Below the pieces are notes generated by a model that saw only the letters and a list, made by a program, of their open reading frames with translations, was not told the origin of the DNA and made no database searches. From positions 1 to 42,054 of the forward strand of contig JACSRI010000059.1 of the NCBI GenBank assembly GCA_014879845.1: a stretch of DNA of 42,054 nt. Reading direction: 5' to 3'. Within the stretch, counting starts at the first letter, position 1. Each line of letters begins with the position of its first letter. This DNA comes from Opitutaceae bacterium. GTDB taxonomy: Bacteria; Verrucomicrobiota; Verrucomicrobiia; Opitutales; Opitutaceae. The translations under genes and the position numbers were made by a program. Positions 22,229 to 38,919 of this stretch are shown here, in pieces.

Positions 22229-22377
22229 TGCGCTGACAGAAAGGAGCGGCCTTGCGCACGGCAAGCGAAGAAGCGGCAATTTCTGCCGACCGCGCTCATG
22301 GGAGGAAAAATGTGGCCTCGCCGGCGACACCGGGTATCCATGCCGGAGCGTCGCACGTGCCGACGCCATCCCCGCCC

Positions 22378-23385
22378 ATGCTCAACGGCAAGTCGATCCT
22401 CGTCACGGGAGGCACCGGGTCCTTCGGCCGCGAGTGCATCCACCAGATCCTCAAGAAATACAAGCCGGCCCGACTGATCGTCTTCTCGCGCGACGAGCTC
22501 AAGCAGTCGGAGATGCAGCAGGACCCGCGGTTTCACTCGCCGGCCATGCGCTACTTCCTGGGCGACGTGCGCGACCCGGAGCGCCTGCAACGCGCGTTCC
22601 GCGGCGTCGACTTCGTGATCCACGCGGCCGCGCTCAAGCAGGTGCCCGCCGCCGAGTACAACCCGCACGAATTCATCAAGACCAACATCGGCGGCGCGAT
22701 GAACATCGTCGAGGCCGCCGTGAACTGCGGCGTGCAGCGTGTGATCGCCCTGAGCACCGACAAGGCCGCGAACCCGATCAATCTCTACGGCGCGACCAAA
22801 CTCTGCTCGGACAAGATCTTCGTCGCGTCCAACAGCTACGCGGGCCGCAGCCCGACGCGTTTTGCCGCCGTGCGCTACGGCAATGTGATCGGCAGCCGCG
22901 GCAGCGTGATCCCGGTGTTTCTCGAGCAGCGCAAGCGCGGCCGCATCACGATCACCGACAAGCGCATGACGCGCTTCCTCATCTCGCTGAACAACGGCGT
23001 GGAGTTCGTGCTCGCCTGCCTCGAGTCCATGGTCGGCGGCGAGATCTTCGTGCCCAAGATCCCGAGCTGCAAGATCGTCGACCTCGTCGAGGCGATGGGC
23101 ACGGGGTGCACGATCCAGGAAATCGGCCGACGCCCAGGCGAAAAGCTCCACGAGATCCTCGTCTCCGAGGACGATGCACCGATGACCGTCGAGCTGCCCG
23201 ATCGTTTCATCATCACGCCCGCGCATCCCTACTGGTCGTCGCACATGCAGGAACTCGGTGGCATGCCCTGCCCCGACGGTTTCTCCTACGTGAGCAACAC
23301 CAACCCGTACCAGCTGCCGATTCACCGCGTGCGCGAGATCTGCCGCGAGATCGCGCGCAAGCTCGGCTACGACGACAGCTTCTAG
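22378..23385 (+). CDS. pseB: PseB, UDP-GlcNAc 4,6-dehydratase (inverting)
   Basis: A 335-residue extended SDR protein. The NAD(P) loop TGGTGSFG is at 10-17, and the catalytic segment STDKAANPINLYGATK (126-141) carries D128, K129, Y137 and K141, the pattern of PseB/FlaA1-type inverting dehydratases. It performs the first step of pseudaminic acid synthesis, turning UDP-GlcNAc into a 4-keto-6-deoxy-altro sugar. The ATG at 22378 begins exactly at conserved sequence. The GTG of pseI follows 12 bases after the stop, so they form an operon. CapD-type dehydratases are related, but the length and flanking pse genes favour PseB. Confidence 0.93.
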   Translation: MLNGKSILVTGGTGSFGRECIHQILKKYKPARLIVFSRDELKQSEMQQDPRFHSPAMRYFLGDVRDPERLQRAFRGVDFVIHAAALKQVPAAEYNPHEFIKTNIGGAMNIVEAAVNCGVQRVIALSTDKAANPINLYGATKLCSDKIFVASNSYAGRSPTRFAAVRYGNVIGSRGSVIPVFLEQRKRGRITITDKRMTRFLISLNNGVEFVLACLESMVGGEIFVPKIPSCKIVDLVEAMGTGCTIQEIGRRPGEKLHEILVSEDDAPMTVELPDRFIITPAHPYWSSHMQELGGMPCPDGFSYVSNTNPYQLPIHRVREICREIARKLGYDDSF

Positions 23386-23397
23386 CGCCCCCTGCCC

Positions 23398-24516
23398 GTG
23401 CCCGCCCGCCGCCCGCGTCTCGCGACCGTTCCTTCGTCCACGTCGCACACGAAACTCCCGCGCTGGCCCGCGACCTTTCGCGTCGGCCGCCGCACGATCG
23501 GCGAGGGATGCGCGCCGTTCCTGATCGCCGAACTCTCGGCCAACCACAAGCAGCGCTTCGAGGAGGCCGTCGCGCTGATCGACGCCGCGGCCGCCGCCGG
23601 AGCCGACGCGGTCAAGCTCCAGACCTACACGCCCGACACGATCACGCTCCCCGCGCGCACCGCACCCTTCCGGGTCGGCAAGGGGCTGTGGGAGGGACGA
23701 TACCTCTACGATCTTTACGGCGAGGCGATGACCCCGTGGGAGTGGCATGCCGATCTCGCCCGACACGCGCGGAGCCGCGGGCTGATCTGCTTCAGCACGC
23801 CGTTCGACGAATCGGCCGTCGATTTTCTCGAGCGCGAGATGCGCCCGCCCGTCTACAAGATCGCCTCCTTCGAGGTGAACCACATCCCCCTGCTCCGCCG
23901 CGTCGGCGCGACACGCAAGCCCGTGATCATGAGCACGGGCATGGCCACCGAGGCGGAGATCTCCCTCGCCGTGCGCACGCTGCACAAGGCCGGCTGCCCC
24001 GCGCTGGTGTTGCTCAAGTGCGTGAGCGCCTACCCCAGCCAACCGCGCGACTTCAACCTGCGCTCGTTGACTGCACTGCGCGACACATTACTCGCGCCGG
24101 CCGGCCTCTCCGACCACACCATGACCGAGGAGGTCGCGCTCGGCTCCGTCGCGCTCGGCGGCTGCGTGATCGAGAAGCACTTCACGATCGACCGCGCCAC
24201 CGGCGGCGTGGACAGCGGCTTCTCGCTCGAGCCGGCGGAGTTTGCCCGCATGGCGCAGGCTGTGCGCGCGCTCCATGCCTCGCTCGGGCGGCCCATCCTT
24301 GGACCGACGCGCCAGGACCTGAAGCAACGACGCTTTCGCCGCTCCATCTTCGTCGCCCGGGACGTGGCACGTGGTGCCGTGCTCACGACCGCGAATCTGC
24401 GCATCGTGCGCCCGGCCGACGGCCTGGACCCGGCCCGCTGGAACGAGGTGCTGGGCCGCAGGGCCCGCCGTGCCCTGAAAGCGGGTACGCCGCTGAAACC
24501 GGGCGACTGGAGCTGA
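23398..24516 (+). CDS. pseI: PseI, pseudaminic acid synthase (NeuB family)
   Basis: A 372-residue protein beginning with GTG 12 bases after pseB. The NeuB TIM barrel covers about 30-300, with FLIAELSANHKQ, AVKLQTYTPDTITL, ISTPFDE-like FSTPFDESAVDFLE, KIASFEVNHIPLL, MSTGMAT, the SDHT motif, and VIEKHFTIDR. A C-terminal SAF (antifreeze-like) domain spans about 312-370. It condenses 2,4-diacetamido-trideoxy-altrose with phosphoenolpyruvate to form pseudaminic acid. ELSANH and SDHT fit the Pse branch. Legionaminic or sialic synthase activity is less likely given PseB, PseC and PseG nearby. The first 25 residues are a non-conserved basic extension, so a later start is possible. Confidence 0.92.
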   Translation: MPARRPRLATVPSSTSHTKLPRWPATFRVGRRTIGEGCAPFLIAELSANHKQRFEEAVALIDAAAAAGADAVKLQTYTPDTITLPARTAPFRVGKGLWEGRYLYDLYGEAMTPWEWHADLARHARSRGLICFSTPFDESAVDFLEREMRPPVYKIASFEVNHIPLLRRVGATRKPVIMSTGMATEAEISLAVRTLHKAGCPALVLLKCVSAYPSQPRDFNLRSLTALRDTLLAPAGLSDHTMTEEVALGSVALGGCVIEKHFTIDRATGGVDSGFSLEPAEFARMAQAVRALHASLGRPILGPTRQDLKQRRFRRSIFVARDVARGAVLTTANLRIVRPADGLDPARWNEVLGRRARRALKAGTPLKPGDWS

Positions 24517-24578: not shown

Positions 24579-25250
24579 ATGACCACCATGCACCTTTCCC
24601 AAATTGCCCTCGTGGCCCTCGCGGCCACCGTCTGCTTCGCCACCGTCTCCGAGGCCCGCCCAGGATCCCGCACTCGCTCCGGCCAGGTCCACACCTCCGG
24701 CGGCCGCACCGGCTCGGTGGTGGAAAACACTCAGCGTGACCGCGGGTCTTTCCACCGCGATCGTACGGTCACCGGCGAAAACGGCCGCACCGCCACCCAG
24801 ACGGTCGACCGGACATGGGACAAGGACAACGGTACCGGCACGTTTGACCGCACGCAGACCGGACCAGCCGGCAACACGCGCGGCGTGCACGGCTCGGCCG
24901 TGCGCAACGACGACGGCTCCGTCTCGAGCACCGGCACCTACGAGCGCAAGAACGGCAACACCGGCTCCTTCGCGACCACCACGCAAAAGACCGAGAACGG
25001 CCGCACCTCGACCGGCACCTACACCAACGCCCAGGGACACACCGGCACGATCGACCGCACCGTGACCCACGAGGGTAACACCACGACGCGTTCGACGACC
25101 ACGACCGGCGCGAACGGCCAGACGCGCTCCGGCGAGACCGTGACGACCGTCGAGAACGGCGCCGCCACGCGCACCCATACCGTCACCAACCACGGGGGCG
25201 AGACCCGCTCCCGCACGGTCACCGTGACGAAGGATCAGCCCACGCCCTGA
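24579..25250 (+). CDS. Secreted Thr/Gly/Arg/Asn-rich repeat protein
   Basis: A 223-residue protein of no recognised family. A signal peptide (MTTMHLSQIALVALAATVCF, cut near SEARP) is followed by about 190 residues of degenerate repeats built on T-G-x-R-T, such as TVTGENGRTATQTVDRTWDK, GSFATTTQKTENGRTSTGTY and TGTIDRTVTHEGN. There are no cysteines or hydrophobic stretches after the signal peptide. The mature part is polar and beta-prone, likely extracellular or periplasmic. The gene sits inside the pse cluster, 62 bases after pseI. Its last 16 bases overlap the end of pseG on the other strand. The many Thr residues could be glycosylation targets, which is speculation. Confidence 0.75.
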   Translation: MTTMHLSQIALVALAATVCFATVSEARPGSRTRSGQVHTSGGRTGSVVENTQRDRGSFHRDRTVTGENGRTATQTVDRTWDKDNGTGTFDRTQTGPAGNTRGVHGSAVRNDDGSVSSTGTYERKNGNTGSFATTTQKTENGRTSTGTYTNAQGHTGTIDRTVTHEGNTTTRSTTTTGANGQTRSGETVTTVENGAATRTHTVTNHGGETRSRTVTVTKDQPTP

Positions 25251-26233
25251 ACCATCGCGTCGGCCACCCGCTCCGCGCCGCGCCCGTCCACTCCGGAGAG
25301 CGCGGCGCGCGCGTTTCCGAGATCGCCGCGCAAGCGGCGCACCGCCGTGGCCAGATCCTTGCGCAGCCCCGACCCGACTCCCACGCGCGGCATGCGCCAG
25401 CGCGCCTCCATCTCGGCCGAGAACCGAGCCTGGTTCTCGGCGACGACGACCGAGACGAAGGGCAACCGCAGCATCGCCAGCTCATAGAGCGTACCGCCGG
25501 CAGCCGACACGGCGAACCGGCACACGCCCGCCCAGCCGGCGAGCTCGCGGGCGTTGACTTGACCAAGCCATACAGCGCGCGGGAATAGTCGCAAGGCCGC
25601 GGGCTGTTCGCCGCCCGGCTGGACGACGACTGGAGCGATCCTTGCAGCATCCACGTCGGCCAGCGCCTCCAGCACGGTCGAGGTGAGACCGGCCGGATCG
25701 GTTCCACCCAGCATCACCAGGACGGACTCGACATCGGCCGGCGGCTGCCACTCCGGCGCAACCGGTGAGCGCAGGCCGGACCGCAGCAACGCATATCGGG
25801 CGCCCAGCAGCGTCGCGACACCCGCCGCATAGCAGGATGCATCGAGCCCGAGCCGCGCATTGAGCACGAGGTCGGCACTCACCAGATGCCGCTTCGCCTC
25901 GTCGTCGATCGCCAGGATCCTTCCCACAAACACACACCGCCACGCCCCCAATTCCGCGTCCGTCGTACCGTAGTGATCGACGACCAGCCAGTCCCAGCCC
26001 CGAGGGGGGCCGGCAGGTCGCTCGAACGCCACGACGTGGTCAAACGGCTCGCGCAACTCGGACGGCAGACCTTCGGTCGCGCTCGACGTCCAGAGGCCGC
26101 AGCGCCAGCCACGCGCCCGCAGTTCCGCGGCGAGCGCACCGCTCCGCACGAGATGCCCCCACCCGTTCGCTCCACCGAACTCGAGACGGAAGAGCGCCGC
26201 GCGGCCGCCCGGCGGATGCTTCACCTCAGCCAT
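25235..26233 (-). CDS. pseG: PseG, UDP-2,4-diacetamido-2,4,6-trideoxy-altrose hydrolase
   Basis: A 332-residue GT-B-fold protein. The N-terminal glycine loop with GWGHLVRSGALAAELRARGW corresponds to the PseG GH(V/L)xR catalytic-histidine region. The C-terminal half has VLVMLGGTDPAGL and FAVSAAGGTLYELAMLRLPF followed by AENQ, as in the family. It removes UDP in the fourth step of pseudaminic acid synthesis. The ATG at 26233 lies inside the end of pseC (8-base overlap), showing translational coupling. Upstream starts would run further into pseC. It is convergent and overlapping with the secreted repeat protein. Confidence 0.88.
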   Translation of the reverse strand: MAEVKHPPGGRAALFRLEFGGANGWGHLVRSGALAAELRARGWRCGLWTSSATEGLPSELREPFDHVVAFERPAGPPRGWDWLVVDHYGTTDAELGAWRCVFVGRILAIDDEAKRHLVSADLVLNARLGLDASCYAAGVATLLGARYALLRSGLRSPVAPEWQPPADVESVLVMLGGTDPAGLTSTVLEALADVDAARIAPVVVQPGGEQPAALRLFPRAVWLGQVNARELAGWAGVCRFAVSAAGGTLYELAMLRLPFVSVVVAENQARFSAEMEARWRMPRVGVGSGLRKDLATAVRRLRGDLGNARAALSGVDGRGAERVADAMVQGVG

Positions 26234-27443
26234 GGGTCTGCGCAAACGCGCGCAACGCATCGACGACGCGCGCCTGGTCGGCCACGGTCATCTTGGGAAA
26301 GAGCGGCAGGCTCAGGCAGCCTTCGTACCACGATTCCGCACCCGGCAGGCGGATCTCGCCGCTCACACGCCGATAGTGCGGGTGACGATAGACCGGGATG
26401 TAATGGACCTGCGACCGGATCCCCCGCGCCGCGAGAAAATCGTAGGCTGCGCGCCGCAGTTCACGCGAGCGAAAGTGCACGACATAGAGATGGTAGGCGT
26501 GATCGCCCTCAAACGCCGGCGCCCGGAGCACCCGATCGAACGGCGCCCCCGTCAGGCTCTCCGCATAGCCGCGCGCGATCTCGCGACGCCGCGCGAGAAA
26601 CTCAGGCAGCCGCGCCAGCTGGCTCGCGCCGAGCGCCGCCTGGATGTCGGTCATGCGGTAGTGGTAGCCGAGTTCGCGCTGTTCGTAGAACCAGCCGCCC
26701 TCGCCCGCCGGCAGTTCCGCGGAGTCCGGCTTCTCGATCCCGTGCGTGCGCAGCCGGCGCAGGCGCTGGGCGAGAGCGGCATCGTTGGTTACGATCGCAC
26801 CACCTTCGCCGGCGCAGATATGTTTGACGGGGTGGAAACTCAGGATGGCCGCGCGCGTGTGCGTGCAGGAGGCGCTCGATCGGGTCGCGCCCGTCGCCGG
26901 ATCACGGTAGGTCGCTCCGAGGCTGTGCGCGGCGTCCTCGACGAGGGTCCACCCGTGCCGCGCGCACACCGCGGCAAGTTCGGGCAGGGCGGCCGCGCGG
27001 CCTGCGAGCGACACGGCGACGACCACACCCGGCGGCGCGCCGAGCGCGGCGAACTCGTGCAGTCGCTCATCGAGCGCCGCGGGCTGCAGCGCCCCGGTGG
27101 CCGGATCGACGTCGGCAAACGCCGCCGCACCGCCGGCATAGAGGAAACAGTTCGCGCTCGCGGCGAACGTGATCGGACTGGTCACGCCCGTCCGCCCCGG
27201 ACCGAAGTCGAGCGCCAGACAGGCGAGGTGCAGCGCGGCCGTACCGCTCGACACCGCCACCGCATGGCTGGCGCCCGTGGTGGCGCACAGCGCTCGTTCG
27301 AAGCGTTCGATCGCCGGACCCTGCGTGAGAAAATCGGAGCGCAGCACATCGGCCACGGCCGCGATGTCGCTCTCGTCGATCCACTGGCGGGCGTAGGGAA
27401 GGATCGGATGCGGATCTGGATCAGAAGCGCCGGAGGGACTCAT
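26226..27443 (-). CDS. pseC: PseC, UDP-4-amino-sugar transaminase (PLP)
   Basis: A 405-residue DegT/DnrJ/EryC1-family aminotransferase. D170 in LVEDAAHSLGA should contact the PLP ring nitrogen, and K207 in ILSFHPVKHICAGEGG is the PLP lysine, in the SFHPVKxxxxGEGG form typical of PseC. SSGTAALHLACLAL binds phosphate. It aminates the PseB product at C4. The ATG at 27443 starts at the conserved PYARQWIDESDIAAV region; a longer reading runs through a repeat and into the FliT-like gene. It lies downstream of fliS and the FliT-like gene on one strand and overlaps pseG, so sugar synthesis may be co-expressed with the filament chaperones. Confidence 0.92.
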   Translation of the reverse strand: MSPSGASDPDPHPILPYARQWIDESDIAAVADVLRSDFLTQGPAIERFERALCATTGASHAVAVSSGTAALHLACLALDFGPGRTGVTSPITFAASANCFLYAGGAAAFADVDPATGALQPAALDERLHEFAALGAPPGVVVAVSLAGRAAALPELAAVCARHGWTLVEDAAHSLGATYRDPATGATRSSASCTHTRAAILSFHPVKHICAGEGGAIVTNDAALAQRLRRLRTHGIEKPDSAELPAGEGGWFYEQRELGYHYRMTDIQAALGASQLARLPEFLARRREIARGYAESLTGAPFDRVLRAPAFEGDHAYHLYVVHFRSRELRRAAYDFLAARGIRSQVHYIPVYRHPHYRRVSGEIRLPGAESWYEGCLSLPLFPKMTVADQARVVDALRAFAQTHG

Positions 27444-27454
27444 GCTGGGTGCGG

Positions 27455-27508
27455 AGGCCTGCACCTTCGCCGAGGCTTCGGCGGGCAGGCGGCGAGGCGT
27501 CCCTACCT
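27455..27508. repeat. Repeat-like GC-rich segment upstream of pseC
   Basis: Read on the minus strand it begins AGGTAGGGACGCCTCGCC and continues into a perfect small hairpin (CGCCGA/TCGGCG around AGCC). The first word resembles the GGTAGGGCGA termini of the other intergenic elements. It occupies most of the 97-base gap between the FliT-like gene and pseC. Confidence 0.4.
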
Positions 27509-27540
27509 GTGTCAGCCCGGACCGGAAACTCGATCCCAAA

Positions 27541-27930
27541 TCAGGCCTGGCCGAGTACGCTCGCGCCGCTCGCGCGAAGGCCGGTGCCGAGGCCCGAGTA
27601 GCCGCGGCGCACCTTGCGGGAACGCTGCACCGCCTGCCCGATCTCATCGAGCGACCGGCGGACCTGAGTCATCTGCTCGCGCAGGGCGCTGAGATTTCCC
27701 GTCTCGCGCGCCTGCAGCGTGCGCACGCGCTGGTCGAGCGCGGCGGAGTCATCCACCGAAAGTTCGATCGAGTGCCGCGCCGCCTGCAGCGACTCGGTGA
27801 GGCGGGCCTTGCGCTCCTGGATGGCGAGCACGTAGTCGATGTCGCCTCGGCGCAGGGCGCTGCTCTCGCGTTCAGTCAGGTCCTCGTACGCGCCGAGCAG
27901 CACGAACAGGCGGCGTCGCGCGGGCGTCAT
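27541..27930 (-). CDS. FliT-like flagellar export chaperone candidate
   Basis: A 129-residue, mainly helical, Arg/Leu-rich protein. Heptad-like helices run from about 1 to 105 (LFVLLGAYEDLTERESSALR, QVRRSLDEIGQAVQRSRKVR) with a flexible Gly/Ser tail. There is no strong signature, but size, helical hairpin character and position 24 bases after fliS fit a FliT- or FlgN-type chaperone. FliT normally binds FliD and keeps it from assembling early. The call rests largely on context. It is followed by pseC on the same strand. Confidence 0.6.
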   Translation of the reverse strand: MTPARRRLFVLLGAYEDLTERESSALRRGDIDYVLAIQERKARLTESLQAARHSIELSVDDSAALDQRVRTLQARETGNLSALREQMTQVRRSLDEIGQAVQRSRKVRRGYSGLGTGLRASGASVLGQA

Positions 27931-27954
27931 GTCTGGAAAACCAGGCGGAGCGCG

Positions 27955-28380
27955 TCAGGCGCTCAACGACATGCCGGCGGCCTGCGCCGGGGCACTGTGC
28001 TGCTGGAGCATCTCGTCCCAGGCCCCGCGGATCTCGCCGAGGAGCTGGATGACGACGCGCACGCCCTCGGGATCCTTCTTGGTGTTGGATTCGATGAGGC
28101 GCGTGAGCATGAAATCGTAGAGCCGGAACATGTTTACGGCGAACTCCCCGCCGTCGCGCACATTGAGGCAGCGCTGCAGCTCGAGGAGGATGTTCTGGGC
28201 CTTGATGATGTTGTTGTGGACGGTCTCCTGGCGGACGCGCAGGTCGCCCTGCCGGAAGCCATCCTCGGCCGTATGCAGGAACCGCAGCGCGCCGTCGAAG
28301 AGCATGAGGATCAACTTGCCCGGGCTGGCCGTGTCGACCGAGACCGAACGATACGAGGCAAGTTTCTTCGCGGGGAGCAT
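27955..28380 (-). CDS. fliS: FliS, flagellin export chaperone
   Basis: A 141-residue helical protein of the FliS family: ASYRSVSVDTASPGKLILML (family YxxxxVxTASPxxLixmLydG), then FDGALRFLHTAEDGF, NNIIKAQNILLELQRCLNV, and YDFMLTRLIESNTKKDPEGV followed by VIQLLGEIRGAWDEM. FliS holds newly made flagellin unfolded in the cytoplasm until export. The ATG at 28380 matches the conserved start; a longer reading from 28419 overlaps the FlgM-like gene. It lies between the FlgM-like and FliT-like genes. Confidence 0.93.
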   Translation of the reverse strand: MLPAKKLASYRSVSVDTASPGKLILMLFDGALRFLHTAEDGFRQGDLRVRQETVHNNIIKAQNILLELQRCLNVRDGGEFAVNMFRLYDFMLTRLIESNTKKDPEGVRVVIQLLGEIRGAWDEMLQQHSAPAQAAGMSLSA

Positions 28381-28405
28381 GGGAGATCCAATCGGCCTGA
28401 ATCGA

Positions 28406-28693
28406 TTACTCTTCAGCACCGAACGGCGTAATCATGCCGGCGATGTTGTTGATGATCTCGGGCGTCGGCCAGTTCGGGTTGGCGAGGAGCTGACGGCCGC
28501 GCTCGACGACCTCCGGACGGATCTCCGGCATGGCGGCGAGGGACGCACGCACGTTGTCGGTCATCTCGGCGGAGAGCTTGTCCGACTCGTCCTGCGCGGC
28601 GGGGGCCGGCTGGGCGGCGGCATTCTGGTTCTGGCCGAGCGACTGCAGCGTGTAAGCCTGATTCGACGAGGTCTTGAGAGGGTCGATGTTCAT
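28406..28693 (-). CDS. FlgM-like anti-sigma-28 candidate
   Basis: A 95-residue protein, the normal length for FlgM. The first half is low-complexity and Gln/Ala/Asn-rich, hence probably unfolded. The C-terminal half has TDNVRASLAAMPEIRPEVVE then RGRQLLANPNWPTPEIINNI and AGMI, which can be laid over the FlgM pattern R-x-E-K-V-x-x-(I/L)-(R/K)-x-x-I-x-x-G-x-Y ... I-A-x-x-(M/L)-I. FlgM binds sigma-28 and is exported when the hook is complete, releasing late genes. A sigma-28-type promoter about 100 bases upstream and fliS directly downstream fit this. Similarity is modest, so another small flagellar protein remains possible. Confidence 0.5.
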   Translation of the reverse strand: MNIDPLKTSSNQAYTLQSLGQNQNAAAQPAPAAQDESDKLSAEMTDNVRASLAAMPEIRPEVVERGRQLLANPNWPTPEIINNIAGMITPFGAEE

Positions 28694-28741
28694 GGGAGAC
28701 GAAAGGTGAAGATTGGAGGGAGACTTGAGCCTTATGTTTTC

Positions 28742-28782
28742 TCCTATCGGATCCGGTTCGGCCGGAGTGATAGGATCTTTTT
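28742..28782. other. Hairpin in the leader of the FlgM-like/fliS operon
   Basis: TCCTATC (28742-28748) pairs with GATAGGA (28769-28775). Inside it CCGG pairs with CCGG around a TTCGG loop. On the plus strand it is followed by TTTTT, but the nearby genes read the other way, so on the minus strand it would be a leader hairpin about 50 bases before the FlgM-like ATG. Confidence 0.5.
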
Positions 28783-28793
28783 GACAAGCCCTC

Positions 28794-28820
28794 TAATCGG
28801 AACCCTCTGACAAAAGTTTA
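28794..28820 (-). promoter_or_regulatory. Sigma-28 (FliA) promoter for the FlgM-like/fliS operon
   Basis: On the minus strand TAAA (28820-28817) is followed after exactly 15 bases by TCCGATTA (28801-28794). The consensus is TAAA-N15-GCCGATAA. It lies between the lipoprotein stop and the FlgM-like gene. Confidence 0.72.
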
Positions 28821-28837
28821 GCAAAAATCTGGGGTGA

Positions 28838-29542
28838 TCACCTTGTTTGCCTGGGGGGAAGTGTCCCAAACATCGCATGGGCAACATACTTCGCGAACCG
28901 GGAGGGGCTTTGCATAATGCCCGAAGAATTTTCCAGCGGATGCGCCGGACGCCCCTGCGTGAGATAGTAATCGCGAGCCGCGACCGCGACAGACGGCTGC
29001 GCGCCGTCGAAAAGCGTATCGAACGACCAGAGCACGGTGCCATCGATCGTCGACACGAGCTTGGCTCGCACGCCGATGGAGATCGGCTGGTAGGGCGCGT
29101 AGTGCGTGAGATCCTGGAAGAGGATGGCATCCGCCCCGTGTGAGGCCCGCAGGCGCGCCAGCACGTCGGCCGGCAGGGCCGCGGACGAGATGACGGATTC
29201 GGCGCCGAACTCCTCGCGCATCTGCACGCGCGAGACTGAAACGACTTCGAAGCGCTCGAACTTTTGCAGCTCCGAGGCAAAGGCCGCCTCAACGGGTCGG
29301 ATCGTCGTGGCCTCCCACGCTTCGGCGTGAAGGGGAAGGACGGCGACGCGCCGCACCTGTGCGGGAATCGCACCGACGCTCGAGAAGTTGGTCGGGCGAA
29401 ACGCCGGACCGGTGGGCACATCCCACTCCTGGTGGACGGTGCGGCAGCCGGACAAGAGCAACCCCAGGCCCAGGGTCGCCAGGGCGGAGGTGCGGATCAG
29501 ACGTCGTATCGCGTGGCGCGAGGCAGTTTTTTTATGGGACAC
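28838..29542 (-). CDS. Flagellar-locus lipoprotein, TolB-N/CsgG-like fold candidate
   Basis: A 234-residue protein. A basic N terminus and hydrophobic stretch end in the lipobox LLSGC, so it should be lipid-anchored in the cell envelope. The mature part has alternating strands and helices (VRRVAVLPLHAEAWEATTIR, ADAILFQDLTHYAPYQPISI, AKLVSTIDGTVLWSFDTLFD), resembling TolB-N, CsgG and similar lipoproteins that bind other envelope proteins. GTG at 29542 is preferred: it is 20 bases after the fliD stop and gives a normal signal peptide. The GTG at 29581 would overlap fliD and add non-signal residues. It may be an outer-membrane component linked to the flagellum (FlgP/FlgT-like by role), which is inference. 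Confidence 0.72.
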   Translation of the reverse strand: MSHKKTASRHAIRRLIRTSALATLGLGLLLSGCRTVHQEWDVPTGPAFRPTNFSSVGAIPAQVRRVAVLPLHAEAWEATTIRPVEAAFASELQKFERFEVVSVSRVQMREEFGAESVISSAALPADVLARLRASHGADAILFQDLTHYAPYQPISIGVRAKLVSTIDGTVLWSFDTLFDGAQPSVAVAARDYYLTQGRPAHPLENSSGIMQSPSRFAKYVAHAMFGTLPPRQTR

Positions 29543-29561
29543 CGGGAAGAGGAAACCGCGC

Positions 29562-31277
29562 TCAGCTGCTGAGCATGCCACTCAAGGCCGAGAGCTGGCT
29601 CTGAATCTTGGATTGTGCCTCTTCCATGGCAATAAAACTGGCTTCGAGCCTTTCCTGCTCAGCCGTGATCCGCCGCTCGAGATCCGCGATCTGCTTATCG
29701 AGGGAGGTATTCTGTTTCTCGAGCGAGTTCTCCTGGTTGTCGATCTGCCCGCCCGTGAGCGTAATCCGCGAAATGTAGGCATCGACCCGCCCGGAGATGC
29801 CGGTGGTCGACGTGGTGAAGAGCGCGCTGACCTTGCTCAGATCGTTGGTCAGGGCGTCCGTGAGCTTGGCGCTGTCGCGCACGGCGAGCGTCGAGCCTGT
29901 GCCCTCGAAATCGATGCCGATCGACTCGAGCCGCGACATGTCGGCCGAGGCGCCGCCCACCGCGCTGAACACCTGGCTGCGCAGCTGGCGCGCGATGTCG
30001 GTGAACTCGCGGTTGCCGGCCATCAGCCCGGCCGTGACCTTGCCATCCGCGCCGACCGTGACCTTGGTCTGCGAGTCGATGTAGTTTTGGACGTCGTTGT
30101 AGGTCGTGATCAGCTTGTCGATGCCGGTGCGAATCGCCTCGGTGTCGTTGGCCACCGTGATCGTCTGGGAGCCGAGCTCGGACGCCGTGACGGATAGCCC
30201 GGAAATCCCGTGGGCCGAGGCGTCGAGCACGTTGGACGAGGCGATGATCGTGCCGCCGCCGTTGACGCTGAACTCCGCGTTGGTCCCGCGCGTGACCGTC
30301 GCACCCGTGGTCAGGCGAAGCGCAGTGAGCAGGTTGCCCGAGCCGTCGCTCGCTGAGAGTCCAAGGTCGCCCGAGCCCTTGTTCGTGAGCGAGAAGCGAT
30401 CATTCGGCGCGTCGTAGCTCATGGTCACGCCGGCATCCGAGGCGTTCACGCGAGCCATCAATGCGGAAAGCGAGTCGTCGTTGACGTTGTAGTCGATCGT
30501 GACGCCGTTGATCGTGAACGAGCCGTTGCCCTCGGCGTCGAGGCCGGTCAGCGCCGTGCCCAGTCCGGCGGCGGCGATGTCGTCGCGCAGACCGATCGTG
30601 CCGAGCGTGGTGCTGCTCGTGATGGTCGAGCCGTTGTTGTTGTAGAGCTTGAGCGCGTAAAGGAAGTTGCTCGTGTCGCCGCCGCCCCCGAGCGTGATCG
30701 TCCCGGAGCCGGTGAGCGTCACCCGGTCGCTCGCCGCACTGTAGGCCGCGGTCACGGCGCCGCCGGTCGCGGTCGAGATCTTGTCGAAGACGTCGTCGAG
30801 CGTGTCGGTCGACTCGACCTCCACAGTGGAGCCATTGATCGTGAAGGTGCCGGCCGTGACGGCCACGGCCGTGCGCATCTCCGATACGAGCAGGCCGGAG
30901 ACGTCGTCAGTCGCGTTGAGCGAGCCGGCCACGTCCGACGCACCGCGGCGCACGGACTGCGTGGCAAGGCGCGTCACGTTGAACGCGTACTCGCCCGTCA
31001 CGGCGCTGCTCGAGGCGGTGGCGGACCAGTTCAGGTCGGCGTCGCCCATCGACACCGTGCGCTGGCCAAAAAGCGAGGTCGACGAGAGCGCCTTGGCGGC
31101 ATCCTGGAACGCCGTGAGCTTCGTCCGCAGGTTGGTGAAGACCGAGAGCTTGTTGGTGTTGGCTGTCTTCTCCGTCCGCATTTTCTGCTGCGGCACGCGC
31201 TCAATTTGAATGAGCTGCTCGACGACTGATTTCCAGTCGAAGCCAGATGCGAGCCCGGAGAGTTGAAGACCAGCCAT
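29562..31277 (-). CDS. fliD: FliD, flagellar filament cap (hook-associated protein 2)
   Basis: A 571-residue protein. The FliD N-terminal domain opens with LQLSGLASGFDWKSVVEQLI and QIERVPQQKM. A Ser/Thr/Gly/Asp-rich central beta region (about 90-400) follows, including repeated DRVTLTGSG/DRFSLTNKGSG-type phrases. The FliD C-terminal domain (about 400-571) has SRLESIGIDFEG-like text and the terminal coiled-coil (LEKQNTSLDKQIADLERRIT and AEQERLEASF). It caps the growing filament and guides flagellin folding. A sigma-28-type promoter lies 42 bases upstream of the ATG. The lipoprotein gene follows closely on the same strand. Confidence 0.95.
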   Translation of the reverse strand: MAGLQLSGLASGFDWKSVVEQLIQIERVPQQKMRTEKTANTNKLSVFTNLRTKLTAFQDAAKALSSTSLFGQRTVSMGDADLNWSATASSSAVTGEYAFNVTRLATQSVRRGASDVAGSLNATDDVSGLLVSEMRTAVAVTAGTFTINGSTVEVESTDTLDDVFDKISTATGGAVTAAYSAASDRVTLTGSGTITLGGGGDTSNFLYALKLYNNNGSTITSSTTLGTIGLRDDIAAAGLGTALTGLDAEGNGSFTINGVTIDYNVNDDSLSALMARVNASDAGVTMSYDAPNDRFSLTNKGSGDLGLSASDGSGNLLTALRLTTGATVTRGTNAEFSVNGGGTIIASSNVLDASAHGISGLSVTASELGSQTITVANDTEAIRTGIDKLITTYNDVQNYIDSQTKVTVGADGKVTAGLMAGNREFTDIARQLRSQVFSAVGGASADMSRLESIGIDFEGTGSTLAVRDSAKLTDALTNDLSKVSALFTTSTTGISGRVDAYISRITLTGGQIDNQENSLEKQNTSLDKQIADLERRITAEQERLEASFIAMEEAQSKIQSQLSALSGMLSS

Positions 31278-31318
31278 GATGAGGACGCGGGAGTGGAACT
31301 AGGTTACGTCACCAACGA

Positions 31319-31345
31319 CTATCGGCCAATGGGGGAGATACCTTA
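31319..31345 (-). promoter_or_regulatory. Sigma-28 (FliA) promoter for fliD
   Basis: On the minus strand TAAG (31345-31342) is followed after exactly 15 bases by GCCGATAG (31326-31319), differing from TAAA-N15-GCCGATAA at one base in each box. It sits in the 75-base gap between the maf stop and the fliD start, giving a leader of about 35 bases. Confidence 0.82.
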
Positions 31346-31352
31346 GCGCGGT

Positions 31353-33164
31353 TTACGTGTTTTTCGCGGGTGCCGGCGCAACAGCCGACACGGCAGGGGA
31401 CAGGACACGATCGAGTTGGTTGAGCAGGAACCAGGCACCCTCCGCCATGGCCCAGGCATACTCGCGCTCGAGCAGGAACCGACGGAGGTTCGGTCCAGCG
31501 CCGGCCGGCAGCGAGTTTTCCATGGCCCGCGCCTTGAAGAGCTCGAGACGTGTGCGCCCGGCCTCGAGAATCGCATCATCGTCCGGGCGGGTCGCCACGT
31601 ACGTGCGCAGCTCGTCGACCGCTGCAAACACGGGTGCGAATCGAGCCGCCGAACTCTCATCCTCGCGCATCGTATCCTCGACGAGTGGCTCGGACAGGCC
31701 CGCGGCTTTGAGGGCAAGCCGAAGCACGTCCCGCGTGAACGACCGGGTCGTGGACAACACGGAGCGCGTCCGGGCCGCTCCGAGCGCATACGCGCCCCCG
31801 GTGCGGTGGCGCTTGGCCAACGCGTCCATGGCACCGCTCGTCGACTTGGTGCCGAGCCACGCGATGGCTTGGTCCAACGGCAGATACGGGATGCCCTCGA
31901 TGCGGGCGCCCAGCCGCGACGTGTTGCAGAAACGCGCCTGCGGCCGGTGGGCAGCCAGTTGCTCGAACGTCTTGAGGTAGACGTAGAGCTTACCCTCCAC
32001 AAGCACCTCGGGCAGGGTGTTCCCCGGAAGGCGCCGACACGCCTCCGTGTCCGCGCGATTCGCGTTCATGTCGCTGTAGAAGGAGTCCGAGGCGTGGCTG
32101 CGCCCATCCGGTCGGACGGCCAGGTCCTGCCCGACCAGGCAGATGCGATCGCAGCCCATGATGATACCCAAATCGATCGCGCAAGCGGACACGGTCCCCT
32201 GCTCCACAATCCGGATACCCGGCGGCATCTTCAGCCGTCGACGCAGCTCCAGGAACAGCTCGTTGGCGCCACTCCAGATGAAGGTGCGGCCGGCGAACAT
32301 GCGCGGGACGTCGGGATGCACGATGGGCGTGGTGACCAGCCAGGTGCCGTCTGTCGGCACGGTGGCGAATCCCCGTGCCGTGAACTCACGCGGATCCGCC
32401 GCGAGCACCAGATGAGGTACGACACCGGCGTTGCGCACCGCGCGGTAGGACGAGTTCACCGCGACGATCACCGCGACCTTGCTCGCCGCGCGCAGGAAAT
32501 CGAGCGACTCGTCGAGCGACGGCCCCGCCGAGACGAGAACCATCGGCCGACCGCGAAAAACCTCGCCGAGCGCGGGCAACTCCGGCGCGTCGGCCAGCAG
32601 CTCAAGGTTGGCAAAGGAGTTCGCCTGCCACAGCGGGGCGTCCGCGATGCGCGTGCCTTCGAGCTTGCGGCGAAAATCCACGAAACGCGCGAACTCGGTG
32701 AAGAACCGGGCGTAGTACTCCGGCGCGAGATTGTAACACGGGGCGAAAACCCAGGGCGCGACGTCGGTCATTTCGGCCGCCGCCGAGGCAGGCAACACCT
32801 GCAGGAAAGCATCGTCGATCTCGCCCACGCCAACATACAGACGTTGATCGCCCAGAATGTCGCTGAGGTCCGCCTGCTCCAGCGCGGCACGCAGGCGCGC
32901 CGGCGATTCCTCCGCCGCGAACACCGTCGTCCGTTCAGGCAATACGCCGAGAAGTGCGCGAAGGTGGATGGCATCGCCGAAACCAGACACAGCGAGAAGC
33001 GCCCCCTGTCGAATTCGACGGCCCGCCAGCCAACGCGCCGCAAGGATCGACGCATCCTCGGGCGACCGCACCCAGGCGGGCTGTGGCGCCACGCGCGTGA
33101 TCCGTCGCGCGACCTCGGGAAACCGCACCGAAAGGACTGAGACGTTGCGGGCGAGGAAACTCAT
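31353..33164 (-). CDS. Maf/DUF115 motility accessory factor, flagellin glycosyltransferase
   Basis: A 603-residue protein of the motility accessory factor family. The DUF115 core (about 205-380) starts at GRPMVLVSAGPSLDESLDFL and includes VAVNSSYRAVRNAGVVPHLV, AADPREF and GCDRICLVGQDLAVRPDGRS. Maf proteins transfer nonulosonic acids such as pseudaminic acid from CMP-sugar onto flagellin Ser/Thr in the cytoplasm, in agreement with the pse genes and adjacent flagellin. The ATG at 33164 overlaps the stop of the preceding 186-residue gene (ATGA), so the two are coupled. The C-terminal 230 residues are less conserved and helical. Catalytic details of this family are only partly known. Confidence 0.88.
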   Translation of the reverse strand: MSFLARNVSVLSVRFPEVARRITRVAPQPAWVRSPEDASILAARWLAGRRIRQGALLAVSGFGDAIHLRALLGVLPERTTVFAAEESPARLRAALEQADLSDILGDQRLYVGVGEIDDAFLQVLPASAAAEMTDVAPWVFAPCYNLAPEYYARFFTEFARFVDFRRKLEGTRIADAPLWQANSFANLELLADAPELPALGEVFRGRPMVLVSAGPSLDESLDFLRAASKVAVIVAVNSSYRAVRNAGVVPHLVLAADPREFTARGFATVPTDGTWLVTTPIVHPDVPRMFAGRTFIWSGANELFLELRRRLKMPPGIRIVEQGTVSACAIDLGIIMGCDRICLVGQDLAVRPDGRSHASDSFYSDMNANRADTEACRRLPGNTLPEVLVEGKLYVYLKTFEQLAAHRPQARFCNTSRLGARIEGIPYLPLDQAIAWLGTKSTSGAMDALAKRHRTGGAYALGAARTRSVLSTTRSFTRDVLRLALKAAGLSEPLVEDTMREDESSAARFAPVFAAVDELRTYVATRPDDDAILEAGRTRLELFKARAMENSLPAGAGPNLRRFLLEREYAWAMAEGAWFLLNQLDRVLSPAVSAVAPAPAKNT

Positions 33165-33721
33165 GCATCGCCCTCCCCCTTCGCCTCGCCCGCGACGCAC
33201 CTGAGACACGGAAGCACGGCCTTTTCCAGGGCCAGGCAGACGCCGGCCGCGTCGCGAGCAGTCACGGCATCGAGCCAGGTGCCCAGCGCCGCGCTCAGAT
33301 CGTGTGCCCAGGCCGAATACGGAGCAGCCTCACCGAGACTTCCCAGATCGTTCAAGAGTGCCGCAAGCGGTTCGCCGGAGGCAACCAACTGGGATGCAAC
33401 GGACGGCCACGGCTCTCGGAGCACCTCGACCGAGAGCGGAGCGAGTCGGTCAAGCAGGCCGGAGGCACGTTCGCGGCATGACCCGGCCAGGCGCTGAATC
33501 GCCTCCGCGACGGAGAGCGATAGAAACTCAATTCGTCTCGCCCCACAAAACGCCGCCTCATCCAGCTCCCCCTCGCTCGGGCTTCCGTCGACGCTCACGC
33601 CCACAAGGACACGCCCCGAAACCGCGACGCCGCGTTCCAGGACCGCCAGCAACTCGGAAAACGAAGTCGGAAACGGCCCGTCAAAGCGGACCTGCTCACC
33701 ATCGAGATAAACTTCAGGCAC
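33161..33721 (-). CDS. Uncharacterised protein coupled to the Maf glycosyltransferase
   Basis: A 186-residue protein I do not recognise. The first half looks alpha/beta (VYLDGEQVRFDGPFPTSFSE, VLVGVSVDGSP). The second is helical with Leu/Ala repeats, ending in a short Cys-containing stretch (LPCLRCVAGEAKGEGDA). No signal peptide or membrane segment is visible, so it is cytoplasmic. It starts with GTG, is divergent from flagellin, and its stop overlaps the maf start by four bases. Tight coupling suggests a partner or chaperone of Maf or flagellin, by context only. Confidence 0.75.
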   Translation of the reverse strand: MPEVYLDGEQVRFDGPFPTSFSELLAVLERGVAVSGRVLVGVSVDGSPSEGELDEAAFCGARRIEFLSLSVAEAIQRLAGSCRERASGLLDRLAPLSVEVLREPWPSVASQLVASGEPLAALLNDLGSLGEAAPYSAWAHDLSAALGTWLDAVTARDAAGVCLALEKAVLPCLRCVAGEAKGEGDA

Positions 33722-33764
33722 GTGGAGAGGCCTGAGGAAAACGCCCCGCGTGGCAATTTGCAGC

Positions 33765-33790
33765 TAAAGAATCACCCGGCCGGCCGATAA
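33765..33790 (+). promoter_or_regulatory. Sigma-28 (FliA) promoter for flagellin
   Basis: CTAAA (33764-33768) and a perfect GCCGATAA (33783-33790) are separated by 14 bases (consensus 15). It lies about 105 bases before the flagellin ATG in the divergent 174-base gap. Confidence 0.85.
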
Positions 33791-33895
33791 ACACACCCGT
33801 TCGGGAAAGGATTCCCGGCAGGTGAGGCCAAGCACCACAAAAAACCCAATGGCCCGTCGCGGCACGGAAGTCGCATCAGATCAAGGAAGATCACC

Positions 33896-34705
33896 ATGTC
33901 TATCGTCATCAATACCAACTCGTCTGCAACGGCTGCGTATGGCAATCTCGCGACTGCCAACTCGATGCTGCAGAAGAGCCTCAATCGTCTCTCCTCCGGC
34001 TACAAGATCGTGCAGCCGTCGGACGACGCCGGTGGTTTGGCCGTGTCGATGAAGTTGTCCGCCGCCCTCAAGCGCACGGACGCCGCCTCGACCAACGTTG
34101 CGAACGCCCAGTCCTTCCTCCAGGTGCAGGACGGCGCGCTCAAGACCTCGGGAAAGATCCTCGAGCGTATCTCGGAACTCAAGACGCTCTCTCAGGACGT
34201 CACCAAGTCCGACAGCGACAAGGAAAACTATCAGACTGAGTTCGAAGCCCTCCAGGCGCAGCTCACGAGCATCACGAACGAGAAGTTCAACGGTGTCTCG
34301 GTGTTCGCCGGCGGCGAGACTCTCGCCGTGAAGATCAACGAGCTCGGTACCGAGGAAGTCGATATCACGATCGCAGATCTCGCGACGGCCGTGAATAGCA
34401 TCACGGGCGCGGGCAGCCTCGCGAATGATACCGAGATCTCCATCGACGATATCACCACCGCGATCCAGTCGGTTGCGACCAGCCGCGCGCAGAACGGTGC
34501 GGAGTTCAGCCGCTTGTCCTTCGCCAGCGAAATGCTGCAGGCCAATCGTCAGAACCTCGAGGCCGCGAACAGCCGTATCATCGACGTCGACGTCGCGAAG
34601 GAGTCCACACAGCTCGCTCGCTACTCGATCCTCGTGCAGTCCGGCACCGCGATGCTGTCCCAGGCCAACGCCTCCAGCCAGATCGCCCTCCGTCTGCTCG
34701 GCTAA
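33896..34705 (+). CDS. fliC: Flagellin, short form
   Basis: A 269-residue flagellin. The N-terminal D0/D1 helices (IVINTNSSATAAYGNLATAN, LNRLSSGYKIVQPSDDAGGL) and C-terminal helices (EMLQANRQNLEAANSRIIDV, ESTQLARYSILVQSGTAMLS then LRLLG) are complete. The centre is only a short segment, with no D2/D3 variable domain. It polymerises into the filament after FliS-assisted export. A clear AAGGAA (33883-33888) precedes the ATG by 7 bases, and a sigma-28 promoter and a strong terminator bracket the gene. Neighbouring Maf and pse genes predict modification on D1 Ser/Thr residues. Confidence 0.96.
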   Translation: MSIVINTNSSATAAYGNLATANSMLQKSLNRLSSGYKIVQPSDDAGGLAVSMKLSAALKRTDAASTNVANAQSFLQVQDGALKTSGKILERISELKTLSQDVTKSDSDKENYQTEFEALQAQLTSITNEKFNGVSVFAGGETLAVKINELGTEEVDITIADLATAVNSITGAGSLANDTEISIDDITTAIQSVATSRAQNGAEFSRLSFASEMLQANRQNLEAANSRIIDVDVAKESTQLARYSILVQSGTAMLSQANASSQIALRLLG

Positions 34706-35577: not shown

Positions 35578-36558
35578 ATGCCCGACTCCGGACCGCATGT
35601 CCTGATCCTCTCACCCGGCTCGAAGATCGCGCTGACCCGAGCGCTCGCCGAGGCCACGTCGGCTCGCGGTGGGAGGCTGTCAGGATGGGAAGCCGATCCG
35701 TTTTCTCCAGCCGCAACCTTGTGCAGTGCCCGTGTCCAGGGCGGACCGGTCGAAGATCCGGACTCCGCCGAGCAGCTGCTCGAGTGGTGTGTGCGCAAGC
35801 ACGTGAACCTGGTGGTACCATCGCGCCACGACGACCTTCCCACGCTCGCTCATGCCGCCGCTCGCTTCGCCGCCGCCGGCGTGACGCTCGCGATATCCGC
35901 ACCGGAGACGATCGCCCTTTGTCTCGACAAAGTCGCATCGCACGCGTGGCTGCGTGGCGGTGGGTTTCCAGTTCCGACTCAGGCATCGGTCGCCGAGCTC
36001 GCGACCAGTCCGCTGGCCGGCGGTTTTCCGCTCGTCGCCAAATACCCGCGCGGCAGCGGCAGCAGGCATGTGCGCGTCTGCCGAAACCCGTCCGACCTCG
36101 CTGGACTCGATCCCGACTGGATCGTGCAAAGCCATGCTCCCGGAGTGGAGTATACCATCAACACCTACGCCGCCCGCGACGGGCGCTGTCTGTGTGAAAT
36201 CCCGCACGAGCGCCTGCTCATCGGCGACGGCGAAGTTGTGCGCGGCCGCACTGCGCGCCAGCCCGCGCTCATGGATCTCGCCCGACGCATCACCGAGGCG
36301 CTGCCCGGCGCGCGCGGCCCGCTCAACATTCAGGCCTTCTGGGACGAGGGCACGCGGACGGCGACTGTCATCGAGATCAACCCGCGCTTCGGCGGCGGTT
36401 ATCCCCTCGCCCACGAAGCCGGCGGTCGTTTCGCCGAGTGGTTGATCGCCGAATACCTCGACGGACGCACGCTCCCACGGGTGGAATCGTGGGAGGACGG
36501 GCTGCTGATGGTGCGTTACCGCGAAGCGAAGTTTTTCCGCGCGATGCCACCTCGATGA
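35578..36558 (+). CDS. ATP-grasp enzyme (CarB-like), substrate unknown
   Basis: A 326-residue ATP-grasp protein. The pre-ATP-grasp domain (about 1-110) begins HVLILSPGSKIALTRALAEA, the nucleotide-binding part includes FPLVAKYPRGSGSRHVRVCR (about 151-169), and the metal-binding end is VIEINPRFGGGYPLAHEAGG (about 270-290). This layout is that of carbamoyl-phosphate-synthase-like single-copy ligases, which activate a carboxylate and join it to an amine or other nucleophile. Such genes recur in flagellin-modification islands. Here it lies between the Cys-His-Asp protein and a glycosyltransferase, so modification of a sugar or of flagellin is a reasonable guess. The ATG at 35578 matches the conserved start. 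Confidence 0.85.
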   Translation: MPDSGPHVLILSPGSKIALTRALAEATSARGGRLSGWEADPFSPAATLCSARVQGGPVEDPDSAEQLLEWCVRKHVNLVVPSRHDDLPTLAHAAARFAAAGVTLAISAPETIALCLDKVASHAWLRGGGFPVPTQASVAELATSPLAGGFPLVAKYPRGSGSRHVRVCRNPSDLAGLDPDWIVQSHAPGVEYTINTYAARDGRCLCEIPHERLLIGDGEVVRGRTARQPALMDLARRITEALPGARGPLNIQAFWDEGTRTATVIEINPRFGGGYPLAHEAGGRFAEWLIAEYLDGRTLPRVESWEDGLLMVRYREAKFFRAMPPR

Positions 36559-36591
36559 GTATCCGCGCACGCGGTCCTGCAACATCCTAGA

Positions 36592-38919
36592 ATGATCTCC
36601 ACGCTTCGCCCGCTCGATAAACTCGGCCGCTCTGAGGACAGTTGGCGGATCGTTCGAGATCTCTACGAAACGCCCGACCACCGCTTTGATCCCAGGCTGC
36701 TCGCTGATACGTCGGCACGAGCAGAACTTCAGTTCATCGACTCGCTCGTCCACGGGCTCACGACGGATCCGGTGGTGAATTGGTCGGCACTCGCAGCGAC
36801 CGCCTTGGGCCGCGACACCGGCTCGCGAAAACGTGAGTGGTATCTAGCTTGGGCGGAGCGTGCCTCGCAGCGGCTCGCCTGGAGCCAATCAAACGCACGC
36901 GCGAAGCCTCAGCTTGGCACCTGCTCCCAGGAGGACCTTTGGGCTCTGGCGGAACTCGACGCAGCGCGACTCGCCAAGCGTCTGGGTCTTTCTTCCCCGC
37001 CACCGCTCGACGCCACGCCCGAGGAGCGGCGCGCCGACTTGATTTGGCGTCGAGGATTGGTGCTCCTTTCGTCGAAGGGTTCACCGGTCAGCCTCCAGGA
37101 TCTGCACACGCCTTGGGTGCCGTTCGCCTACCGAACTCCACCGGCAGTCTCGGAGGATTGGCAGAAAGCGATCCGCGCGGCAGCCGACCCGAAGCAAACG
37201 CCCCTGCTGGTGGTCGAGCCTTACGACTTTTGGTCAACGGCCGACATCTCGGCCCTGGACGAGCGCTACGCCATCTTTGCCTTCTCCTCGCACCATGCGA
37301 TGTGGCACGCGCTATCGTGTGACAACCTCTTCAGGTCCCTCCTCATCCAGCGTCATGCCATAGTCGTAGGCGGCGAGTATCCCGACGAGCATGTGTTCGG
37401 CCCCTGGCTCGGATCGGCGCGATGCGCCCCGGTCCGTTCAGTCATCTCTCCGACGGCGTCCGCTTGGGTGAAACGAGTCGACTCAATCAGCGAAGCGGCC
37501 ACGGCGGTACTCACTCGCTTCCTCGGCGGCGAATCTACGCGCAATCCCGATGCGCAATGGTTCTTCGAACTCGGACTGAACCTCAAGCACGAGATCATGC
37601 GCCAGCGCTTTGGCGCGGCGCGTGCCTGCACGTTGCATCGGATGGCCGGGACTGAACGGTGGTTCAGCCCGTTCAAGGACCGCCCGACCTCAGGCCGCGA
37701 TACGCACCCGCCCGTCGACCTGCTGGCCGTGCTCACTGGACCCGAGACGAGGCGACCGGCACGTCGCGCCCTGTCTGGCGGGACTCGCCGCCGTCTGGTC
37801 CATATCGTCAGTCAGGTGATCGACGGCGGCCACGCACCATCGACGCTGGTCCGGACCCTGGTCGAGCGTGCGAATCGCGCCCGGTGGGACATTTCGGTGG
37901 TTTCACTCGAGTCCGCCGTCATCCGTGCCGCAGAGTATCCGAGAAGCAACTTCGTCACTGAAGATTCGTCCAAGCGCGGCGCACGCACCATCGACTCGTG
38001 GCGCTCGGCCGGCGTGCACGTTCACCTCTGTGGGGCGGCGGGCTCGATCGACGACTGCATTCGCGAGGCCTGCGAGGTGATGGCGGCACGGCAGGCCGAC
38101 GTCGCCATCTGGCACGGCAACGATCCGTCGCTCCTCGTGTGCGCCGCACGCTCGGACATACCGCGGCGCGTCTTCTTTGAGCACTCCGGCCTGGTGTTCC
38201 AACCGGATTTCGATCTGGCCATCGCATCCCTCGCCGATGCCGAGAAATCATTCGCTGCCGAATCGGTGCGATCGGGAGTCGCCATTGCCGCATTGCCGTA
38301 TTGCTCCAATGCGCGCGCCACCTGGGATGACAAGCCGCCGGATCTCAAGACTGGGCCCAACGTTCGAATATTAACGACCATCTCCAACCACCTCGAAAAC
38401 CGCGTCGCGGGAACTTTCGTGGAGGCGGTGGCGACTATTCTGCAGATTTGCCCAAATGCCATCTACGCACCGATCGGACCGGTTCAGGACAGGGCGGCAT
38501 TCCAACGTCGATTCGCTCCCTGGGGAGTCGCCGATCGGATCATGTGCACAGGCCCAAGTTCAGCCCCGAGCCAACTCTGCCGCGGGATGCATCTGTATCT
38601 GAACGAATTCCCGTTCGGGTCAGGCATCGCGATCCTCGACGCCATGGCAGCCGGGCTGCCCGTCGTGACGATGTACGATCCGAATGGACCCATGCAGGCC
38701 CAAAACGGAGGCAACTACATCGGACATGATCGCGCCATTCGTTCGCTTGACCCAGTCGACTACGTCACGCTCGCCTGCCAGTTGATACAGGACCCGGCAA
38801 TGTATCAGGAATGGTCGGCGCACTCCCACGCCCGATTCGAGTGTTTTGGACCTGAGCCGTACGTCCGCCGATTCGAGGAGATACTCGAAACCCGCCTCCT
38901 CGCTCCGCAGGCGGGTTAG
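36592..38919 (+). CDS. Large GT-B glycosyltransferase, candidate flagellin-modifying enzyme
   Basis: A 775-residue protein. The first 390 residues are unlike anything I recognise. Residues about 400-775 form a GT-B glycosyltransferase: VHIVSQVIDGGHAPSTLVRT-like start, VFFEHSGLVFQ, VRILTTISNHLENRVAGTFV, and the donor-site segment LYLNEFPFGSGIAILDAMAA then GLPVVTMYD. That last motif resembles the SPINDLY/OGT/HMW1C group (NPFPFGG..LDALAAGLPVVT), whose members glycosylate proteins in the cytoplasm. Its place 33 bases after the ATP-grasp gene and near flagellin suggests a flagellin target. Start at 36592 has no strong ribosome site. The coding sequence looks slightly less GC-rich than its neighbours. 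Confidence 0.82.
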   Translation: MISTLRPLDKLGRSEDSWRIVRDLYETPDHRFDPRLLADTSARAELQFIDSLVHGLTTDPVVNWSALAATALGRDTGSRKREWYLAWAERASQRLAWSQSNARAKPQLGTCSQEDLWALAELDAARLAKRLGLSSPPPLDATPEERRADLIWRRGLVLLSSKGSPVSLQDLHTPWVPFAYRTPPAVSEDWQKAIRAAADPKQTPLLVVEPYDFWSTADISALDERYAIFAFSSHHAMWHALSCDNLFRSLLIQRHAIVVGGEYPDEHVFGPWLGSARCAPVRSVISPTASAWVKRVDSISEAATAVLTRFLGGESTRNPDAQWFFELGLNLKHEIMRQRFGAARACTLHRMAGTERWFSPFKDRPTSGRDTHPPVDLLAVLTGPETRRPARRALSGGTRRRLVHIVSQVIDGGHAPSTLVRTLVERANRARWDISVVSLESAVIRAAEYPRSNFVTEDSSKRGARTIDSWRSAGVHVHLCGAAGSIDDCIREACEVMAARQADVAIWHGNDPSLLVCAARSDIPRRVFFEHSGLVFQPDFDLAIASLADAEKSFAAESVRSGVAIAALPYCSNARATWDDKPPDLKTGPNVRILTTISNHLENRVAGTFVEAVATILQICPNAIYAPIGPVQDRAAFQRRFAPWGVADRIMCTGPSSAPSQLCRGMHLYLNEFPFGSGIAILDAMAAGLPVVTMYDPNGPMQAQNGGNYIGHDRAIRSLDPVDYVTLACQLIQDPAMYQEWSAHSHARFECFGPEPYVRRFEEILETRLLAPQAG
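38889..38917 (+). terminator. Weak hairpin at the end of the glycosyltransferase gene
   Basis: AACCCGCCT (38889-38897) pairs with AGGCGGGTT (38909-38917) and the hairpin overlaps the stop codon. There is no T run, so its action as a terminator is doubtful. The next gene is convergent, 39 bases away. Confidence 0.4.

Follow-up and report, generated by a model that had tools for sequence, protein, structure and literature searches.

Several bacteria require glycosylation of their flagellin for motility and, to our knowledge, the timing of the sugar supply to flagellin export has been little studied. In the window analysed here, a stretch of 42,054 nucleotides from an Opitutaceae bacterium (contig JACSRI010000059.1), the flagellar chaperone genes are followed by two sugar genes, and a sequence resembling a sigma-28 promoter stands ahead of them. 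We asked whether the late flagellar sigma factor could also direct sugar synthesis. The data make it quite probable that three class-3 promoters of the window are read by FliA and that the third starts a flgM-fliS-fliT-pseC-pseG transcript, coupling the sugar to the late flagellar genes. With somewhat less confidence, we favour a broader proposal for this group of Opitutales, namely that a single operon under sigma-28 control unites the flagellar chaperone genes with those for the middle of the pseudaminic-acid pathway and that, in one clade, its promoter lies in the last codons of the flgM-like gene. The features concerned are collected in Table 1.

Table 1. Genes and predicted promoters of the window, in order of position.
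Feature	Position	Strand	Evidence or match
pseB	22252..23385	+ (opposite strand)	TIGR03589, 478 bits; without upstream sigma-28 site
pseI	23398..24516	+ (opposite strand)	TIGR03586, 428 bits
pseG, hydrolase	25235..26260	-	Overlaps pseC end; TIGR03590, 119 bits, below cut-off 153.6
pseC, aminotransferase	26226..27443	-	TIGR03588, 443 bits, cut-off 423.5
FliT/FlgN-like chaperone gene	27541..27930	-	Weak Pfam FliT (2e-4) and FlgN (4e-4), both below gathering score
fliS, flagellin chaperone	27955..28419	-	Pfam FliS 2.7e-33; TIGR00208 above cut-off
FlgM-like gene, putative anti-sigma-28 factor	28406..28693	-	Conserved family A1
Predicted sigma-28 promoter before flgM-fliS-fliT-pseC-pseG	28794..28820	-	TAAA-N15-TCCGATTA, two mismatches
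Lipoprotein-like gene	28838..29581	-	Overlaps fliD end; no Pfam match
fliD, filament cap	29562..31277	-	Pfam FliD_C 9e-40, FliD_N 3e-22
Predicted sigma-28 promoter before fliD	31319..31345	-	TAAG-N15-GCCGATAG, two mismatches
Predicted sigma-28 promoter before flagellin	33765..33790	+	TAAA-N14-GCCGATAA, exact match
fliC, flagellin	33896..34705	+	NCBIfam flagellin models, best E 6e-39

The sigma-28 motif was defined as a −35 box TAAA and a −10 box GCCGATAA separated by a spacer of 14–16 nt, and the three sites of the window have this layout, one exactly and two with two mismatches each. The coordinates and strands given for them in the initial annotation were confirmed in the sequence, and the gene map bore out that they are intergenic and aimed at fliC, fliD and the flgM-like gene, respectively. 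The description of all three as matching the motif was too strong, as it holds for the flagellin site, the sole exact N14 match in the 5.44-Mb genome, but not for the other two. When the window was searched with the N15 pattern at up to two mismatches, three matches were obtained versus 0.4 expected, one of which was the fliC site aligned with an incorrect spacer. By arithmetic from the genome density, the chance of finding one site in each of the specific gaps (75, 144 and 174 nt) on the right strand is about 1e-8. The genome-wide enrichment that had been suggested as a check did not appear for the raw motif: the same N15 pattern gave 68 matches in the whole genome versus 80 for the reversed control. 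Since this loose pattern shows no genome-wide excess, the two weaker sites cannot be proved from sequence alone. In addition, no convincing sigma-28 site was identified on the flagellar contigs C160 (carrying fliA) and C74 (carrying flgK), so that among the three flagellar contigs compared (the window's, C160 and C74), good sites were found at the window's genes only. Other N15 matches of the genome with one mismatch were considered as targets and rejected, most of them being within long ORFs and without a recognisable flagellar target. Separately, a one-mismatch sigma-28-like site was observed at 1501–1527 of locus L012 (own genome, C92:40663–40689), 78 nt before a response-regulator-like ORF; it is a possible further sigma-28 target, although an ORF of the opposite strand covers it.

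The genes flgM-fliS-fliT-pseC-pseG are located on one strand and are tightly packed, the start of fliS being probably the ATG at 28380. Neither a sigma-70-like promoter in 25000–34000 nor a terminator-like site on this strand from the flgM site to the pseC start was identified by consensus. In most relatives in which both genes were recognised, pseC starts 7–24 nt after fliT. In L100, which belongs to the window's lineage, and in the sister clade, which consists of 18 loci plus genome G481 and includes every member found among the 252 family genomes searched, fliT is followed on its own strand by pseC and pseG, and pseI-pseB runs convergently. The fliS-pseC linkage was found in three families of the order; fliS lies beside pseC in two further families (f5, loci L054 and L058; f10, L056/L182), and there the flgM-upstream site is poor or absent, with two mismatches at best. 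In the PseC tree the fliS-linked proteins were placed in one half (100% SH-aLRT), and the PseC proteins from three genomes of another type in the same family were placed outside it.

These data bear on whether the late sigma-28 transcript could end at fliT, with pseC and pseG as mere neighbours transcribed from a house-keeping promoter of their own in fliT or in the gap. Such an arrangement would suit the window itself, where the fliT-pseC gap is 97 nt long (27444–27540) and has a strong predicted fold (−43.9 kcal/mol), as well as the other genera that keep the predicted flgM-fliS promoter without pse genes and the several sister-clade genomes in which the pse genes are lost or broken and the flagellar genes and the site are kept. 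However, the short fliT-pseC distances of most relatives, the lack of any recognised terminator or sigma-70-like promoter and the conservation of the fliS-pseC neighbourhood in three families all speak against it, and we regard it as rather unlikely. The claim that the operon continues into pseC and pseG gained partial support instead, from this spacing and lack of signals, from the conserved gene order and from the intragenic site of the sister clade described below, all of which are sequence data. The folded gap is possibly an attenuator or an mRNA processing site, and the fold could uncouple pseC from the upstream genes; an interspersed repeat was ruled out, as the hairpin is unique in the genome. 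It was also observed that L110, L111, L116 and L117 bear broken pse remnants beside an otherwise kept flagellar operon, which are apparent losses of the sugar part.

The identity of the FlgM-like protein was studied at several levels. The window protein alone gave no Pfam match, the FlgM domain (PF04316) included. Within family A1, weak Pfam FlgM matches were obtained for 5 of the 26 members (best E 0.046), and hhalign of the family against the FlgM profile gave a probability of 65% (E 6e-5), the aligned region being the conserved C-terminal part. The FlgM-like profile found no FlgM among solved structures, the genome yielded no further FlgM, and a regular-expression search for FlgM relatives in other loci was also negative. 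The gene product is regarded here as a putative anti-sigma-28 factor. A stem-loop is present in the flgM leader (28736–28774), with TTTTT after it on the + strand, and might stop antisense transcription.

In all 19 sister-clade genomes (L099, L101–L107, L109–L118 and L163) a predicted sigma-28 site was identified within the coding sequence of flgM, at its 3' end and immediately ahead of fliS, which starts 55–76 nt past the flgM stop where its start was located. The last flgM codons, GCT AAA ... G[C/A]C GAT GA, read as TAAA-N15-G[C/A]CGATGA, one or two mismatches from the consensus; other relatives also have GCCGATGA as the −10 match ahead of fliD. This internal site is absent from the window and from L100. 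Codon changes in 18 of the 19 genomes were mapped on a tree built from FliS, FliD and the lipoprotein. Third-position changes numbered 0 and 0 at the −35 codons (GCT AAA), 8, 3, 5, 7 and 3 at the spacer codons, and 0 and 0 at the −10 codons (G[C/A]C GAT); among 908 codon columns of the neighbouring genes, 4 were without changes and the mean was 5.5. It could be argued that the C-terminus of the FlgM-like protein is what is constrained here and that no promoter exists, as the residues KLIVPFADDE are themselves conserved, but third positions are invariant at the −35 and −10 codons only and free in the five codons between, on a background where zero-change columns are so scarce. Since the invariant synonymous sites are confined to the two boxes, protein constraint offers no explanation for them, and we consider this alternative very improbable.

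The contrast between unchanged boxes and 3–8 changes per spacer codon suggests that sigma-28 probably drives the chaperone-sugar operon, and in the sister clade the anti-sigma-like gene seems to double as the promoter of that operon. If this is true, one stretch of DNA encodes both a brake of sigma-28 and a target of it, and the embedded promoter separates the chaperone-sugar operon from flgM. The predicted promoter would also be a clear and alignable case of dual coding, in which protein and promoter share their bases and leave a signature that can be measured. The site upstream of flgM is weaker in this clade, being present with two mismatches in 6 of 18 loci and better in none. Upstream of flgM in L099, L101, L104, L111, L113 and L116, a shared AT-rich element resembling TAAA..TTAACAAAT..CCTGAA was noticed, which occupies the expected sigma-28 position.

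The upstream regions of relatives were scanned at up to two mismatches, with expectations from dinucleotide shuffles. FliS is present in about half of the family's genomes, and nearly all loci compared have the order fliD-lipoprotein-flgM-fliS; the lipoprotein-like gene has kept its place between fliD and flgM in almost every relative and, given its overlap with the fliD end, is probably in the fliD transcript. Upstream of fliD the motif was found in 25 of 39 loci (0.95 expected), mostly 30–45 nt upstream of the match, and upstream of fliC in 24 of 61 copies (2.5 expected), mostly at 95–105 nt. Before flgM it was present in 38 of the 51 loci outside the sister clade, where the sites mostly end 65–82 nt before the ATG, and the reversed motif gave 0/69. 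Upstream regions of pseB (0/19), pseI (0/15), pseC (0/16), pseG (0/13), maf (0/17) and the lipoprotein gene (0/68) contained no motif. That the three matches of the window are chance sequence of AT-rich gaps and not promoters is hardly credible and appears already largely refuted since, against the two mismatches of two of the three sites and genome-wide matches equalled by the reversed control, there stand a conservation of position that greatly exceeds the shuffles in dozens of genomes, the lack of any motif at six negative-control genes and the synonymous-site invariance of the sister clade. Conservation in relatives is, at the level of sequence, stronger evidence for the sites than the motif match.

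As the positions of the sites are conserved in relatives, the sites can be taken as selected elements, and together with the fliA gene this makes sigma-28 promoters the natural reading. That gene, whose presence the initial annotation had named as a requirement, was located at C160:6317–6988 with 236.7 bits, above the curated cut-off of 189.6. The FliA gene and the fixed-distance conservation in many relatives give good support to sigma-28 control of flagellin, cap and the flgM/fliS operon, and likewise to the view that the three sites are ordinary class-3 flagellar promoters, presumably read by FliA.

With regard to the sugar, PseB, PseC and PseI scored above the NCBIfam equivalog cut-offs and PseG below its own, and no strong match to PseF was found in the genome, the best reaching 72 of 205.7 bits on another contig. 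Because of the PseG score and the lack of a strong PseF match, the sugar is called putative pseudaminic acid only. Sigma-54 sites before pseB, fliD, fliC and maf were not found above chance. A gene for a sigma-54 activator response regulator (20720–22228, − strand) adjoins pseB and is divergent from it. Finally, a PylC-like ATP-grasp gene and a large glycosyltransferase gene were observed 3' of flagellin (35578–38919, + strand) and may belong to the flagellin sugar system.

From these results we infer the use of FliA, read-through into pseC-pseG, a timing logic and the placing of the sugar on flagellin. Once freed from its anti-sigma factor, FliA would read fliC, fliD-lipoprotein and flgM-fliS-fliT-pseC-pseG together, the last as a single transcript started at the third site. 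The anti-sigma-like factor, the filament chaperones and two pseudaminic-acid enzymes would then be made in the same late period as flagellin and cap, and the sugar supply would be timed to flagellin export. Since the steps of PseC and PseG are mid-pathway ones, synthesis of the sugar would be completed only once FliA is free, and this sugar probably coats the flagellar filament protein. Chaperone and sugar genes in one sigma-28 operon would be a simple and testable answer to the problem of timing, in a phylum that has received little study.

That sigma-28 governs flagellin, cap and chaperone is textbook knowledge, and the enteric class-3 FliA promoters (fliC, flgMN, fliDST) have the consensus TAAA-N15-GCCGATAA; the wiring of flagellin, cap and flgM-fliS is ordinary flagellar biology, and the less ordinary part is its extension into sugar genes. 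In Campylobacter, a sigma-28 promoter has reportedly also been assigned to pseB (Cj1293). No report on this phylum was found in the literature searched. The link between chaperones and sugar had been called unusual, which is only partly right, as at least three families of the order share it and a FliA site has been predicted in Shewanella (PMC3765264). As in the FliA/FlgM scheme described for enteric bacteria (PMC10578931), flagellin, cap, chaperones and the anti-sigma gene are downstream of the sites; unlike there, the chaperones share an operon with FlgM-like and sugar genes, and the phylum is different. In Shewanella oneidensis a predicted FliA site, TAAAG-N14-GCCGTTAA, located 57 bp upstream, likewise heads the flagellin-modification genes sfmABCDE, but these modification genes are different ones and make up a separate operon of five genes, and fliS, fliT and flgM are not described there (PMC3765264). 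In Escherichia coli, according to the summary in PMC10578931 (citing Fitzgerald 2018), motAB-cheAW is transcribed from a conserved FliA promoter that lies within flhC. The predicted sister-clade promoter resembles this one, as there summarised, in lying within a flagellar regulator gene, in reading into a downstream operon and in its conservation across species, and differs in its restriction to one clade and in leading from the 3' end of the flgM-like gene into fliS-fliT-pseC-pseG. In Aeromonas caviae, Maf glycosylates flagellin with pseudaminic acid, and the FliS-type chaperone FlaJ, which binds glycosylated flagellin about 5 times better, then takes it over (PMC4065374). This is a hand-over between proteins and not a shared transcript, promoter control not being the subject of that work; given the preference of such a chaperone for glycosylated flagellin, joint production of chaperone and sugar, as proposed here, would make sense.
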